In this document: positions 5,113 through 53,818 of the stretch, in pieces | Layout: each line of letters starts with the position of its first letter | Position numbering within the stretch: position 1 is the stretch's first letter | DNA from: Agrococcus lahaulensis DSM 17612 | GTDB lineage: Bacteria; Actinomycetota; Actinomycetes; Actinomycetales; Microbacteriaceae | Reading direction: 5' to 3' | Length of the DNA: 64,000 nucleotides | Assembly (NCBI RefSeq): GCF_000425105.1 | Contig: NZ_AULD01000006.1 | Coordinates: forward strand, 496,001 to 560,000 | Made by a program: the position numbers and the translations under genes | The notes under the pieces: model-generated | What the model saw: only the letters and a program-made list of their open reading frames with translations | What the model was told of the DNA's origin: nothing | Databases searched by the model: none

Positions 5113-6339
5113 ATGGCGCGCCCCACGAGCATCTCCGCCGCGCAGGCCCGGCGCATCGCCGTCGCAGCGAGCGGCCTCGACGGCGCGGTGCCGGGGGCGC
5201 GGGGCCGCACGGGAGCTCGGACGCTCGAGCGCGCGATCTCGCGGCTCGGCCTGCTGCAGCTCGACTCGGTCAACGTCTTCGAGCGCAGCCACTACCTGCC
5301 GCTGCTCGCGCGCCTCGGCCCCTACGACCGGTCGGCGCTCGACCGCCTCCTCCACCACGACCACGGCCGCTCGCTCGGCGCCTACACCGAGTACGTGGCG
5401 CACGAGGCGGCGGTCATCCCCGTCGCCGACTGGCCGCTGTGGGCGTGGAAGCGCCGCGAGCCCATGCGAGGCAGCACCGACGCGTGGGCGGCCGAGCACG
5501 CCAGCCTCATCGACGACGTGCGCGCCGAGTTCGCCGAGCGCGGGCCCATGCGGCCGAGCGAGATGGAGCACCCCGCGCACGAGCGACTGCCCGGCGGGTG
5601 GTGGAACAAGTCGGATGCGTACTGGGCGACCGCGATCCTCTTCCGTCGGGGAGAGCTCGTCACCGTCGGCCGCTCGCGCTTCGAGCGCCGGTACGCCGTC
5701 GCCGAGGCGGTGCTGCCCGAGGCAGCGCGCGTCGAGGTCGATGCGCGCGACGCCCACCGGATCCTCGTCGGCCGGGCGGCGGTCGCGCTCGGCATCGCGA
5801 CCGTCGACGACCTCGCCGACTACCACCGGCTCTCGATCGCCGACACGAAGGTCGCGATCGCGGCGCTCGTCGACGCGGGCGAGCTCGAGCCGGTCGAGGT
5901 CGAGGGCTGGGGTCGCCCCGCCTACCGGAGCGTCGGCGCCCGGAGCCCGAGGGCGGTGCGGGCCACCGCGCTCCTGTCGCCGTTCGACCCGCTCGTCTGG
6001 CACCGGCCGCGCGCCGAGCGGCTCTTCGACTTCGCCTACCGCATCTCGATCTACACGCCCGCTGCGCAGCGGGAGCACGGCTACTACGTGCTGCCCGTGC
6101 TCGTCGACGACCACCTCGTCGGCCGCGTCGACCTCAAGAGCGACCGCCGCGCGGGCGTGCTCCGCGTGCAGCACGCGCACGTCGAGCCGGCGCACGTCGA
6201 GCGGGCGGGCGAGCTCGCGGACCGGATCGTTCCGGTGCTGCGGGAGGCGGCGGGGTGGCAGGGGCTCGAGCGGGTCGAGGTCGTCGGGGCGGGGACGTGG
6301 GCGCGGGAGGTGGCGGGGGTCGCGAGCGGCGCGCTCTGA
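5113..6339 (+). CDS. YcaQ-type winged-helix DNA glycosylase
   Basis: This 408-residue protein belongs to the HTH_42 (YcaQ/AlkZ) superfamily, whose members remove bulky alkyl adducts or unhook interstrand crosslinks. The N-terminal part has LGLLQLDSVNVFERSHYLPLLARLG, whose QLD corresponds to the QxD catalytic motif of the YcaQ (AlkX) branch rather than the QxQ of Streptomyces AlkZ. The middle carries HEAAVIPVADWPLW and HPAHERLPGGWW, and the C-terminal region has LLSPFDPLVWHRPRAERLFDF. The start is the ATG 7 nt after a TAGGTT hexamer. The stop codon lies at the edge of a 44-bp tandem repeat, so the last residues (GVASGAL) may be repeat-derived. Confidence 0.88.
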   Translation: MARPTSISAAQARRIAVAASGLDGAVPGARGRTGARTLERAISRLGLLQLDSVNVFERSHYLPLLARLGPYDRSALDRLLHHDHGRSLGAYTEYVAHEAAVIPVADWPLWAWKRREPMRGSTDAWAAEHASLIDDVRAEFAERGPMRPSEMEHPAHERLPGGWWNKSDAYWATAILFRRGELVTVGRSRFERRYAVAEAVLPEAARVEVDARDAHRILVGRAAVALGIATVDDLADYHRLSIADTKVAIAALVDAGELEPVEVEGWGRPAYRSVGARSPRAVRATALLSPFDPLVWHRPRAERLFDFAYRISIYTPAAQREHGYYVLPVLVDDHLVGRVDLKSDRRAGVLRVQHAHVEPAHVERAGELADRIVPVLREAAGWQGLERVEVVGAGTWAREVAGVASGAL

Positions 6340-6468
6340 TCGAGCGGCGGGGCTTCGATACGCGCGCCTGCGGCGCGCTCTGATCGAGCGGCGGGGCTTC
6401 GATACGCGCGCCTGCGGCGCGCGCTGATCGAGCGGCGGGGCTTCGATACGCGCGCCTGCGGCGCGCTA
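6337..6468 (+). repeat. Three tandem 44-bp repeats
   Basis: Three direct copies of 44 bp start at 6337, 6381 and 6425, each opening with TGATCGAGCGGCGGGG. Copies 1 and 2 differ by one base at the end and copy 3 diverges in its last bases. There are no spacers between units. Each contains GCGCGCCTGCGGCGCGC, which can form a stem with a TGC loop. The first copy starts on the stop codon of the upstream gene, and homology reaches back to about 6329. Confidence 0.9.
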
Positions 6469-6475
6469 CTCAGCC
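6439..6475 (+). repeat. 37-nt palindromic intergenic element, copy 1
   Basis: The last tandem copy runs into a complete element: GGCTTCGATAC, stem GCGCGCC, loop TGC, stem GGCGCGC, then TACTCAGCC. It aligns over its full 37 nt with the reverse complement of 52184-52220. The ends are conserved and the stem is replaced on both arms with pairing kept. Confidence 0.75.
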
Positions 6476-6477
6476 TT

Positions 6478-6527
6478 GATGACTTCGGACTCAACGCCGC
6501 TGCGCGGCATTGAGTCCTCCGTCATCA
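6478..6527. terminator. Bidirectional terminator hairpin
   Basis: TGATGAC (6478-6484) pairs with GTCATCA (6521-6527). Inside these, GGACTCAA pairs with TTGAGTCC and GCCGC with GCGGC. It lies between converging genes. The stop codon of the minus-strand LemA-like gene (6525-6527) is inside the stem. An AAAA run follows on the plus strand. Confidence 0.75.
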
Positions 6528-7073
6528 AAACTGGATCCTCGGTGGCTCGGCGACGGCGCCGGACTGGTCGACCTCGAAGAAGTCGCGGCGGCCGCCCGCC
6601 GAGCCCGCGAAGAGCGACGTCGGGAAGCGGCGCGCCTTCGCGTTGAGCTCTCGCGCACCCGTGTTGTAGTCGCGCCGCCGCGCCTGCGCGTCGTCGTCGA
6701 GCGCCGCGAGCGCCGTCCGTGCCTCCGCGGCCGACGATCCCACCGGCTGCGACGCGGCCGCCTGCACGAGCGGGCGCAGCGACCGCTGCAGCTCCGCCTC
6801 GGCGGCGGCCTTCTCCCCCGGCCCGCTCGCGCGCTCGAGCGCCGCGAACGCATCCGTCACCTGTGCCCGCTGCGGCTCGCTCGCCACCGCGAGCAGCGGC
6901 TCGGCCACCGCGCGGCGGCGCTCGAGCGTCTCGGCGAGCGCCGCCCAGCGCTCGTCGACGCGCGCGCCGAGGCGCCGCATGGAGACGGAGGCCGAGACGA
7001 TCCAGACGATCGCGATGACGGCGATGACGACGAGCGCGCCGACGACGATCCAGGTGATGAGCTGGGGATCCAT
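6525..7073 (-). CDS. LemA-like membrane-anchored protein
   Basis: This 182-residue protein has an N-terminal membrane helix (ITWIVVGALVVIAVIAIVWIV, about residues 5-25). A helical domain follows (VDERWAALAETLERRRAVAEPLLAVA), ending with RRDYNTGARELNAKARRFPTSLFAG. The YNxxxxxxNxxxxxFP pattern is typical of LemA-family proteins, whose role is not settled. I chose the ATG at 7073 because AAGGTGG lies 5 nt upstream. A GTG nine bases further upstream (7082) is in frame but less well placed. It stands alone between a lactone oxidase gene and the repeat block. Confidence 0.8.
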   Translation of the reverse strand: MDPQLITWIVVGALVVIAVIAIVWIVSASVSMRRLGARVDERWAALAETLERRRAVAEPLLAVASEPQRAQVTDAFAALERASGPGEKAAAEAELQRSLRPLVQAAASQPVGSSAAEARTALAALDDDAQARRRDYNTGARELNAKARRFPTSLFAGSAGGRRDFFEVDQSGAVAEPPRIQF

Positions 7074-16089: not shown

Positions 16090-16101
16090 CCGATCGCCAG
16101 C

Positions 16102-16161
16102 GCGGAGTCCCGGCACTCTGCGCATCCGGTGCATGCGGATCGCGGAGTGCCGGGACTCTGC
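16102..16161. repeat. Paired 20-bp palindromes, 40-bp period
   Basis: Two near-palindromic 20-mers, GCGGAGTCCCGGCACTCTGC (16102-16121) and GCGGAGTGCCGGGACTCTGC (16142-16161), are separated by exactly 20 bp. The spacer is itself a dyad (ATCCG...CGGAT). The whole block can fold as one long hairpin between converging genes, so it may act as a two-way terminator. The same arrangement recurs at 35431 and 36540. Confidence 0.85.
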
Positions 16162-16166
16162 TCGGG

Positions 16167-35420: not shown

Positions 35421-35430
35421 CGCGCCTGCC

Positions 35431-35490
35431 GCAGAGTGCCGGAACTCTGCCCTTTCGAAGGCTCTGAAGCGCAGAGTGCCGACACTCTGC
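35431..35490. repeat. Paired 20-bp palindromes, 40-bp period (left of Vsr-like gene)
   Basis: GCAGAGTGCCGGAACTCTGC (35431-35450) and GCAGAGTGCCGACACTCTGC (35471-35490) are separated by 20 bp ending in GAAGC. The copies start 11 nt after the gnd stop and 78 nt before the next gene. Same family and phase as 16102 and 36540. Confidence 0.88.
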
Positions 35491-35552
35491 GCGGCGGACG
35501 CGCGCGCCGCGACGACGGCTGTGGAGAGCGGCGGCGGCAGCAGGCAGGACGC

Positions 35553-36494: not shown

Positions 36495-36539
36495 CTGAGC
36501 AGACGGTTCCGGCGCTCCGCGTCGACGCGCATCCGAGCC

Positions 36540-36599
36540 GCAGAGTTCCGGCACTCTGCGCGCTCGCGACCTCGGAAGCGCAGAGTTCCGGCACTCTGC
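36540..36599. repeat. Paired 20-bp palindromes, 40-bp period (right of Vsr-like gene)
   Basis: GCAGAGTTCCGGCACTCTGC occurs twice and identically, at 36540-36559 and 36580-36599, with a 20-bp spacer again ending in GAAGC. It lies between converging genes. Confidence 0.9.
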
Positions 36600-36616
36600 G
36601 CCCGGCGGGCGGGGAA

Positions 36617-44272: not shown

Positions 44273-44343
44273 TCCGCCATGGTGTAACGGCAGCACAGCG
44301 GCCTTTGGAGCCGTTTGTCCAGGTTCGAATCCTGGTGGCGGAG
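44273..44343 (+). tRNA. tRNA-Gln (UUG)
   Basis: The acceptor arms TCCGCCA and TGGCGGA pair over 7 bp, with discriminator G and no encoded CCA. The D arm holds GGTGTAACGGCA, the anticodon stem GCGGC/GCCGT encloses loop CTTTGGA with anticodon TTG, and the T arm is CCAGG-TTCGAAT-CCTGG. The length is 71 nt. It reads CAA, and CAG by wobble. Confidence 0.95.
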
Positions 44344-44367
44344 CGAACGACCCGGTGGGTCGTTCGC
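44343..44367 (+). terminator. Terminator after tRNA-Gln
   Basis: GCGAACGACCC and GGGTCGTTCGC form a perfect 11-bp stem with a GGT loop. It starts at the last base of the tRNA. No T tract follows. Confidence 0.7.
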
Positions 44368-44420
44368 GACGCCACCAGTCGCGAGCGTCAGCGAGCGAGG
44401 GCGGAGCGCACCGCGATCCA

Positions 44421-48983: not shown

Positions 48984-52130
<3,147 letters not shown>

Positions 52131-52134
<4 letters not shown>

Positions 52135-52183
52135 GCCCGCAGCGCGCAATGCGGCGCAGCCGCGTTGCGCGCGGAGGGCTCAA
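52131..52183. terminator. Large bidirectional terminator hairpin
   Basis: TTGAGCCC (52131-52138) pairs with GGGCTCAA (52176-52183). Inner pairs are GCGCGCAA/TTGCGCGC and GCGGC/GCCGC around a GCA loop. It contains the stop codon of the plus-strand gene and faces the stop of the DUF5719 gene. Confidence 0.8.
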
Positions 52184-52220
52184 GGTCGAGTAGCCGGCCA
52201 ACGGCCGGCGTACCGAGACC
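52184..52220 (-). repeat. 37-nt palindromic intergenic element, copy 2
   Basis: Read on the minus strand it is GGTCTCGGTAC, stem GCCGGCC, loop GTT, stem GGCCGGC, then TACTCGACC. It aligns without gaps with 6439-6475. The stem sequence differs on both arms and still pairs perfectly. Confidence 0.8.
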
Positions 52221-52231
52221 CCCCACCAGCC

Positions 52232-53818
52232 TCAGTGCACGACGGTCACCCCGCCGGCGGTCGGCCCCTGCGGGCTCGCCGTGAACCCGCCCACCCGGCT
52301 GCCGTCGCGATACCCGACGCTCACGACGAGCTCCTCGCCCGTCACGACGACGGAGCCGGCCTCGACCGGCTGCCGGTGCACCCCGAGCCCGTCGAGCTCG
52401 ACGGCTCGCCCGTCGACGGTGATCTGCTGCGGCTCCTCCGCCGCGCTCGCGACGTGGAGCGTCGCGCCCGGTCCCGGCGGCACGGCGATCGCCGAGCTGC
52501 CCGAGCGGGGCTGACCGCCCGCGACCCAGTCGAAGTCGTTGCCGTCTGCCGCGATCGCGACCTGTCGCGCACCGGCGACGACCGGGGTGTCGGCCGAGAC
52601 GCGGATCGTGGTGATGCCGACCGGGATCTCCTCGAGCGCGAAGTCGGTGACCCGCCCCGCCTCGAGGTCGCCCTCGGACTCGATCACGGAGCCGTCCTCC
52701 GCCTCGAAGACGACCCGCACCGGCCCGCCCTCGAGCGAGAGGAGGCGCAGCGCCGGCACGGCGTCGTCGAAGCCCTCCTGCGTCTCGATGCCCGTCGCCT
52801 CCGTCACGGCGACGCCCGGGAGCACCGCGGTCGTGAGCGCCGAGACCGGGTCGACGATCTCGAAGCCGCCCCGCTCGAGCCCCCGCGTCGTCGACTGCTG
52901 GAGGTGCGCCGAGACGGGCGCGCCCGTCGAGACGACGTGCACGACGACGTCGTCGACGCCCGGTGCGATCGCGGCGAGGTCCATCACCGCCTGCGAGGCG
53001 GGCGGCACGCTGATGCCGGTCGAGCCGACGGTCTCCACGGGGCCATCGGGGCCATGGACCGTCACGTCGACGCTCGCGCTCACCTGGGATGCGTTGGCGA
53101 TCGTGAGCGTGGACTGCCGGCCGGTGCGGGTCGAGCCGCCGACGAGCCACTGGTCGAGCCGCGTCTCGCCGCACTCGCTCACCGCGAGGCCGCGCACATC
53201 GTCGACGTCGACGGGGAGCGACTGCGCGGCCGAGAGCGTCGTCGCCTCACCGCGCTGGGCGATCGCGGTGCCGCCCGAGATCTCGTCGCGCCCGGGCACC
53301 GGCAGCCGCTGCTCGGCGACCTCGCCGCCGAGGCTGCCGACGACGACCTCGGGCTCGGCGACCGCCGACAGCGCGAGCGCGTCGGTGCCGTCGCTCGTGC
53401 CGACGCGCAGCGCCGGCCCCGCGCACACGCGCGACTGGAGCGGCGAGGAGGGCAGCACGTGCGTGGTGGGCGCCTCGGCGCGCTCGAGCGGCTCGGCGGG
53501 CAGCGCTCCGGCGCCGAGCACCGCGCCCGTCATGAGCAGCGCGGCCCCGAGCCCCGCGGCGGCCCTGACGCCCCAGCGGAGCATGTCGCGGCGCTCGACG
53601 CGGCGCGCGCCGGCGGCCGCGTCGTTCGCGGCCGCCTCGCGGTCGGTGAGCGCGACGTCGGTCGCGATGTCGCCGGCTGCGGCGGGCGCCTCGGCCTCGA
53701 CCGCGAGCTCCTCGGGAGACGGCGTGCGCGGGCGCGGCTCCTCCTCGTCGGAGATGGGCGAGTCGTCGTCGAACTCCTGCGAGTCGTCGATCGCGCCGGG
53801 GTCGTCTCGATCCGTCAC
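52232..53818 (-). CDS. DUF5719 secreted/anchored protein
   Basis: This 528-residue protein has an acidic cytosolic N-terminus (about 1-75), one membrane helix (VRAAAGLGAALLMTGAVLGAGAL, about 83-105) and a long extracytoplasmic beta-rich region. Repeated segments there, such as SQVSASVDVTVHGPDGPVE and GGPVRVVFEAEDGSVIESEGDLEAG, suggest Ig-like modules. This is the DUF5719 pattern. The function is unknown. In actinobacteria the gene follows the large glycosyltransferase, as here (4-nt GTGA overlap), which suggests a role in cell-surface glycan assembly. Confidence 0.87.
   Translation of the reverse strand: MTDRDDPGAIDDSQEFDDDSPISDEEEPRPRTPSPEELAVEAEAPAAAGDIATDVALTDREAAANDAAAGARRVERRDMLRWGVRAAAGLGAALLMTGAVLGAGALPAEPLERAEAPTTHVLPSSPLQSRVCAGPALRVGTSDGTDALALSAVAEPEVVVGSLGGEVAEQRLPVPGRDEISGGTAIAQRGEATTLSAAQSLPVDVDDVRGLAVSECGETRLDQWLVGGSTRTGRQSTLTIANASQVSASVDVTVHGPDGPVETVGSTGISVPPASQAVMDLAAIAPGVDDVVVHVVSTGAPVSAHLQQSTTRGLERGGFEIVDPVSALTTAVLPGVAVTEATGIETQEGFDDAVPALRLLSLEGGPVRVVFEAEDGSVIESEGDLEAGRVTDFALEEIPVGITTIRVSADTPVVAGARQVAIAADGNDFDWVAGGQPRSGSSAIAVPPGPGATLHVASAAEEPQQITVDGRAVELDGLGVHRQPVEAGSVVVTGEELVVSVGYRDGSRVGGFTASPQGPTAGGVTVVH

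Follow-up and report, generated by a model that had tools for sequence, protein, structure and literature searches.

A GTAG-Tagged Family of Repetitive Extragenic Palindromes in Agrococcus and a Companion Palindrome Placed on Stop Codons

A 37-nt palindromic element that occurs twice in a 64,000-nt stretch of the Agrococcus lahaulensis DSM 17612 genome (the window) is one unit of a GTAG-tagged family of repetitive extragenic palindromes (REPs) with about 94 copies in this genome (G000: 2,677,837 bases in 13 contigs). Some units are fused to a second palindrome, P53, which sits on the stop codon of the adjacent gene. Judging from sequence comparison, we lean toward the reading that these composites fold in the sense transcript and may serve as mRNA 3' ends.

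Results

Copy 1 in the window reads GGCTTCGATAC-GCGCGCC-TGC-GGCGCGC-TACTCAGCC and copy 2 GGTCTCGGTAC-GCCGGCC-GTT-GGCCGGC-TACTCGACC, each on the strand given in Table 1. The preliminary description of this DNA had reported a 37-nt match without gaps between copies with these two stems, and both were found exactly so. It had also taken the element for a dispersed, non-coding one. Two copies alone could be a coincidence, but genome-wide searches bear this reading out. The pattern TCGRTACN{5,35}TACTCRRCC has 43 matches in the whole genome against none for the reversed control, and the looser TCGATACN{6,36}TACTCG has 94 (50 forward, 44 reverse; control, 0), one of which (C7:72562) comes without a palindrome. 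An Rfam search of the window returned tRNA as its sole match at gathering score; at a relaxed threshold none reached that score, the best being sucA with 27.5 bits against the 40 needed. Another dispersed palindromic repeat (family D19), with GCAGAGTNCCGGNACTCTGC-like cores, occurs in the window at 16099-16163, 35428-35492 and 36537-36601.

Table 1. Coordinates of the two elements, their companion modules and neighboring features in the window
Feature	Position	Strand	Remarks
REP copy 1	6439..6475	+	tagged, GNA-loop strand is minus: GGCT-GAGTAG-CGCGCC-GCA-GGCGCG-CGTATCGA-AGCC
REP copy 2	52184..52220	-	tagged strand is plus: GGTC-GAGTAG-CCGGCC-AAC-GGCCGG-CGTACCGA-GACC
P53 of copy 1	6476..6528	-	R1 73.0 bits; outer end TTGA 6525-6528 (minus), stop codon of the lemA-like gene
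P53 of copy 2	52131..52183	+	R1 82.0 bits; outer end TTGA 52131-52134, stop codon of the plus-strand gene
LemA-family gene (PF04011)	6525..7073	-	stop codon within P53 base; start approximate
Short gene without Pfam match, ending ...DRWRQH (stop)	51781..52134	+	stop codon is P53 outer end; start approximate
Convergent gene on far side of copy 2	52232..53818	-	ad hoc gene caller; start approximate
Tandem array of three hairpins, 44-bp spacing	6321..6467		intact TACTC foot kept in last hairpin only

On the tagged strand, the layout of the unit is NNNN-GAGTAG-stem-C(GNA)G-stem'-CGTAYCGA-N'N'N'N'. It combines a variable but covarying 4-bp outer arm, a fixed core (GAGTAG/CGTAYCGA), a variable and again covarying stem usually of 5-9 bp, and a triloop that in most copies is C(GNA)G. 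GAGTAG directly precedes the stem on this strand in both window copies; among the census copies the GTAG tag is part of the search pattern itself. The 94 matches reduce to 55 distinct inner sequences, 36 of which form a perfect stem closing on a 3-nt loop. These 36 are covered by 22 different stems, are closed by a C-G pair without exception, and carry the loop TNC, which is GNA on the tagged strand, in 29 cases. Among 57 copies considered in the family genome G045, 49 combine a perfect stem with a 3-nt loop, and 46 of these carry the same loop. Of 210 copies listed from a scan of named genomes, 69 have such a stem and loop length, 57 of them again with this loop; the other 141, in which the stem is imperfect or the loop has another length, lie outside the loop counts. 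GNA loops give unusually stable DNA mini-hairpins, according to the accessible text of PMC4686876 and PMC6479982.

Both variable helices are conserved as helices. Watson-Crick pairs make up 96.2% of the inner-stem cells in the 39 distinct copies whose inner part is 15 nt long, compared to 70.2% in shuffles (0/1000 as high), and sliding the stem by up to two positions leaves at most 42%. For the outer 4-bp arm, 58 distinct full copies give 97.4% versus 76.7% (0/2000 as high), with the arm types GGTC/GACC (25), CGTC/GACG (17), GATC/GATC (5), CATC/GATG (3), GGCT/AGCC, GGCC/GGCC and a few imperfect ones. The paired changes that the preliminary description had read as conserved folding are a property of the family; independent variation of stem positions, which it had named as the opposing pattern, was looked for genome-wide and is not what the copies show. 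Two-sided change alone cannot tell RNA folding from folding of single-stranded DNA. On the tagged strand, the stems contain only 16 G.T versus 7 A.C cells (p = 0.09), as counted over distinct inner sequences that have an odd length and few mismatches. GTA pairs with TAC in the predicted RNA fold of copy 2 and is unpaired in the centroid fold of copy 1.

To describe the surroundings of the family we used 864 kb, made up of 40 stretches chosen around elements and the window, with 86 elements in 54 clusters. Single copies account for 37 of the clusters and the rest are groups. Among 32 pairs of neighboring REPs, 21 have GTAG facing outward, 5 inward and 6 lie in direct orientation; 19 of the 21 outward pairs are less than 60 bp apart, ten of them at exactly 17 bp. 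At L017, L021, L028 and from L203:8342 onward, tandem arrays of half-hairpins directly follow an intact element, as if produced by hairpin-caused slippage; two relatives have one decayed unit at L203:8342.

Fifty-one clusters are intergenic, two overlap a called gene and one is unclassifiable. The intergenic clusters occupy 26 convergent, 24 tandem and 1 divergent gap, and background gaps of at least 60 bp in the same sequence number 70, 204 and 109, respectively (chi-square p = 2e-11; convergent enrichment p = 7e-9), an enrichment that is approximate since the background comes from sequence chosen for its elements and the elements lengthen their own gaps. Genes were called with our own caller (86% coding; starts approximate). 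Convergent gaps are enriched, but with 24 of 51 clusters in tandem gaps the element is not confined to them. The median distance from element to gene is 51 bp for 3' ends (n = 76) and 107.5 bp for 5' ends (n = 26). Single REPs are not clearly oriented relative to genes: the tag is on the gene strand in 12 of 17 tandem singles (composites included) and matches the nearer gene in 7 of 18 convergent singles.

As the preliminary description stated, each window copy is found in a gap between convergent genes, with a strong hairpin at its side. The "terminator hairpin" of that description is, however, a second module of fixed form, fused to the element, and does not qualify as a canonical terminator. 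T-runs are absent after P53 and after REP, and a search for terminator hairpins followed by a T-run gave none in each of two window regions. P53 is a palindrome, usually of 53 bp, with the fixed layout 8-3-8-6-3-6-8-3-8. The 1.66 Mb of G000 that were covered (62%) contain ten copies, nine of 53 bp and one of 45 bp. A structural scan of the 864 kb gave nine matches, of which eight are P53 and one is false; a second structural scan added the copy at L236, completing the nine of 53 bp, and R1, a covariance model built on P53, added the 45-bp form (L235:8212-8256). R1 found nothing above 25 bits in 800 kb of G000 outside the census matches (best, 24.3) and nothing above 19.4 bits in the 58 loci (417 kb) taken from G045 and from the named-genome scan. 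Three R1 matches of 23-25 bits in L222 include REP hairpins. One further R1 match (36.1 bits) lies in the window at 44332-44378, in a strong palindrome; the left arm is formed by the 3' end of a tRNA-Gln gene (44273-44344). This match has neither an adjoining REP nor a stop codon, and was left out of the count because it lacks a TTGA or CTGA end.

Every accepted P53 in the 1.66 Mb adjoins a REP and sits on a stop codon. The module abuts the tagged end of the REP without a gap in all ten copies (in L224, a GGAG variant of the tag), and its outer end is Y-TGA, with TGA being the stop codon of the neighboring gene, again in ten of ten. The wobble base of the last codon forms part of the outer base pair, and the next three bases are the stop codon; for L236 this overlap was read from the rpmJ reading frame. 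The ten genes encode gyrase B domains (gyrB), a GTPase with KH_2 domain (era-like), L36 (rpmJ), LemA, LytR_cpsA_psr, a binding-protein-dependent permease, a zinc-type dehydrogenase, a 4-TMS holin-type domain, DUF3040 and one protein without a match.

Covariation in P53 was measured on an alignment of fifteen sequences, nine from G000 and six orthologs, which leaves out the 45- and 51-bp forms and a rearranged form from G119 at the copy-2 site. Of its 330 cells, 99.1% are paired, compared to 80.9% after shuffling (0/500 as high), and slid versions reach at most 40.7%. Two-sided change affects 14 of 22 pairs and 52 cells (14.5 in shuffles; 0/500 as high), with a covariation of 0.489 versus 0.143 (0/500 as high) and 22 versus 17.3 further pair types (2/500 as high). 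The sense strand has 13 G.T versus 2 A.C cells, an excess that shrinks to 4 versus 2 independent positions because 10 of the 13 G.T cells share one position; this bias favors RNA only weakly. The first internal triplet is GNA in 15/15 sequences, the opposite one in 14/15 and the apical one in 10/15. As RNA, the two window composites are predicted to fold at -67.2 and -59.9 kcal/mol (z = -9.5 and -9.7), and copy 1 with its P53 is also stable as a DNA fold (z = -7.7).

We then compared the orthologous sites in 24 genomes of the genus. The composite is present at the copy-1 site in 6 of 17 readable genomes (G000, G566, G119, G564, G576, G583) and at the copy-2 site in 6 of 20 (G000, G571, G573, G576, G119, G566), with an insertion beside the REP in G573 and a repeated inner part in G119. 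All sit on the same stop codon, except for copy 2 of G566, where the module starts a few bases past it. Between orthologous sites the outer arm changes in a compensated manner from GGCT/AGCC to GGTC/GACC, and the foot pair from T-A (GTAG tag) to G-C (GGAG tag). The ends of P53 (TTGATGAC/GTCATCAA, TTGATGGC/GCCATCAA, CTGATGGC/GCCATCAG and TTGAGTCC/GGACTCAA) close with T-A or C-G, changing in step with the wobble base of the last codon.

The composites are also dispensable, as close relatives have remnants or a clean absence at orthologous sites. G575 retains only a remnant at the copy-1 site and has a short clean gap at the copy-2 site, which we read as a loss since the composite is present there in G571 and in more distant species. 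Four other sites, all within a single stretch of 20 kb, were compared with G571 and G575 (about 93% identical); there, elements are shared, decayed or replaced by unrelated palindromes, and no fresh insertion was seen in the comparison with these two genomes. At L203:13166-13256 one species has an element dimer in a convergent gap, and the orthologous gaps of G571 and G575 contain unrelated palindromes; at L203:3764 a plain hairpin replaces the dimer in one relative. At the copy-1 site, G570 and G579 (L263, L268) carry related palindromes whose feet differ (TCGACTCG...GGCTCGA or similar) and which may represent another tag class.

Outside the genus, the strict pattern is present in 35 of 120 family genomes and absent from 85 (reversed control, 0), with 652 copies in G045 and 182 in G116. 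A shorter pattern matches 9 of 396 phylum genomes: four have many copies (90, 27, 28 and 260), and the single matches in the other five are probably due to chance, since the reversed control also gives single matches in 8 genomes. The scan of named genomes (at least 118 stretches, 80 of them listed) found the element, among the matches listed, in Microbacteriaceae, Nocardioides, Mumia, Aeromicrobium, Flexivirga and Gordonia and in many metagenome-assembled genomes (MAGs) of Anaerolineales and other Chloroflexi, one Calditrichia and one Sphingobacteriaceae MAG, of which the last two may be binning errors.

REPs with a GTAG tag are usually explained by RAYT transposases. As a present partner in Actinobacteria we reject RAYT/IS200, since the Y1 (REP transposase) family PF01797 is absent from G000, from 119 of the 120 family genomes, the sole carrier having no strict copy of the element, and from all 32 named actinobacterial element carriers among the matches listed. 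Y1 is present in 18 of 18 carriers from other phyla, again among the matches listed and grouped by record title, and may be a partner in the Chloroflexi carriers. Of 20 Y1 loci inspected out of 73 in these other-phyla carriers, three have an element within about 1.5 kb and none is flanked on both sides. Several Y1 domains in Chloroflexi carriers (L190-L196) lie within long open frames (about 400-590 aa), and the N-terminal part in L190 and L196 resembles a response regulator by eye, possibly marking a domesticated Y1 protein.

Clustering of gene neighbors in L062-L179 pointed to five loci with candidate partner genes, which we take to be DUF222/HNH (13E12) genes. This candidate was dropped, as the 11 DUF222 matches in G000 are far from elements, the nearest at about 3.5 kb. 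Element dimers in Agromyces bracchium were considered as ends of composite transposons and rejected: by eye, the enclosed segments contain ordinary operon genes, and no transposase was recognized. In L132 of this species, inverted dimers lie at four gene junctions of what looks, by eye, like a sulfur-assimilation cluster.

Discussion

Mobility and function are both inferred for REP and P53. The REP family may have spread by transposition or by a copying process like that of other REPs, through an enzyme that would be other than a PF01797-detectable RAYT or has since been lost. In the sense transcript of a gene whose stop codon carries the composite, P53 and REP would form two neighboring hairpins right at the end of the reading frame. 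Such hairpins could define or protect the mRNA 3' end, either by blocking 3'-exonucleases or by terminating transcription without a U-tract, and between convergent genes they would shield both transcripts. Selection on the composite fold would explain why both arms change together at orthologous sites. Placement on the stop codon, sense orientation and compensation across the genus are most simply read as an mRNA 3'-end structure, an account that we consider somewhat better than an even bet. More tentatively, P53-REP may represent a new class of gene-end element, placed on stop codons to the single base, built from helices joined by GNA/GNA internal loops with a GNA apical loop and a GTAG REP, dispersed through the genus and held in its fold by compensatory change, and propagated independently of RAYT by a process that targets stop codons.

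The main rival is selection on single-stranded DNA hairpins. REP, alone or with P53, would be the substrate of an HUH-type or other ssDNA transposase that selects folded hairpins, a selection that the paired changes would reflect, and the composite would insert at YTGA stop codons. Much of the anatomy agrees with such an element: a GTAG tag stands at the foot of the hairpin, inverted dimers occur at a typical spacing of 17 bp, the ends are identical in Actinobacteria and Chloroflexi (among the matches listed), and P53 has its outer end on a stop codon in all ten copies. The C(GNA)G loop on the tagged strand, considering the DNA mini-hairpins described in the accessible part of PMC4686876, fits an ssDNA role at least as well as an RNA role. 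We nevertheless consider this origin rather unlikely, given the lack of Y1 transposases in G000, in 119/120 family genomes and in 32/32 listed actinobacterial carriers, the three of 20 Y1 loci (of 73) with an element nearby and none with elements on both sides, and the absence of recent insertions in the comparison with G571 and G575. A second alternative is that the copies are neutral leftovers of a once-active repeat whose subfamilies had their own stems, in which case paired changes would be inherited from a few founders and imply no present function. The 22 perfect stems that cover 36 inner sequences suit this idea, as do copies that have decayed or been deleted in relatives. Most changes are GC-to-CG swaps, and G-G or C-C intermediates are almost lacking (1 GG in 9 non-Watson-Crick inner-stem cells), as expected from replacement of whole stems rather than stepwise mutation. 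Compensation between orthologous sites in the outer arm, the foot and P53, together with the ten-of-ten placement of P53 on stop codons, makes a purely neutral account improbable. Least probable, and by our estimate very much so, is a protein or nucleoid site, in which gyrase, an HU-like protein or a terminator factor would bind the core GAGTAG/CGTAYCGA as a cruciform or duplex held open by the helices. This would explain why the core alone is fixed in sequence and both flanking helices vary with compensation, but the element is missing at the two window sites in many relatives within the genus, 85 of 120 family genomes lack the strict pattern, and there is no candidate protein.

Relation to Known Systems

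A published description of the Agrococcus repeat was not found in the literature searched. The closest published match is the work on GTAG-tagged REPs by Di Nocera et al. (2013, PMC3733652). As far as its accessible text goes, those REPs are likewise palindromes of 20-40 bp with GTAG at one foot, form subfamilies with alternative complementary stem bases and dimers with GTAG outside, and are mostly located near 3' ends, in gaps that are convergent or unidirectional; certain species have a palindrome that never occurs apart from REPs. The hosts named there are Proteobacteria, Cyanobacteria, Chloroflexi and the PVC group, and the same text contains no word beginning with "actinobacter". Many loops in that collection fit TY or CMA, in contrast to the mostly GNA loops of Agrococcus. 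The Agrococcus element further differs from the REPs in the accessible text by a stem that is nearly free within one genome, an outer arm beyond the tag, the absence of a RAYT, and a companion palindrome that lies beside the REP on a stop codon.

With REPIN/RAYT systems, as presented in the accessible parts of PMC3116915, PMC2817692, PMC8266576 and PMC6006769, the family shares inverted REP pairs, a typical spacing and many copies, but unlike those systems it was found without a RAYT (PF01797 is absent from G000). According to the accessible part of PMC6006769, subclass 1.1 (IS200-type) is the only kind of TnpA-Y1 in high-GC Actinobacteridae. Palindromic repeats in Actinomycetota are not new as such, since a RepRanger table (accessible part of PMC12306157) gives counts of putative REPs that run into the thousands for each of three genomes of Actinomycetota, under a much looser definition than that of the present family. 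The PMC12306157 text names no RAYT and no Microbacterium, and its accessible part was found to contain neither the Agrococcus REP sequence, nor the tag, nor anchoring at stop codons.

Intrinsic (Rho-independent) terminators resemble P53 as strong hairpins just past the stop codon, often between convergent genes. P53 differs in that it lacks a T-run, includes the stop codon in the base of the hairpin and is part of a repeated composite. Mycobacterial MIRU elements are repeats whose end overlaps the TGA stop codon of a gene; they are non-palindromic and tandem, unlike P53-REP. New within the literature searched are a GTAG-type REP family in Actinobacteria without RAYT, the GNA loop combined with nearly free stems, and the stop-codon-anchored composite. 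Hundreds of REP copies in some actinobacterial genomes in which no RAYT was found imply either another mechanism of spreading or a wide loss of RAYT. Anchored at stop codons and compensated in their arms, the composite hairpins, including those at gyrB and rpmJ, form a natural series in which selection on the fold at the RNA level can be directly tested against selection at the DNA level.
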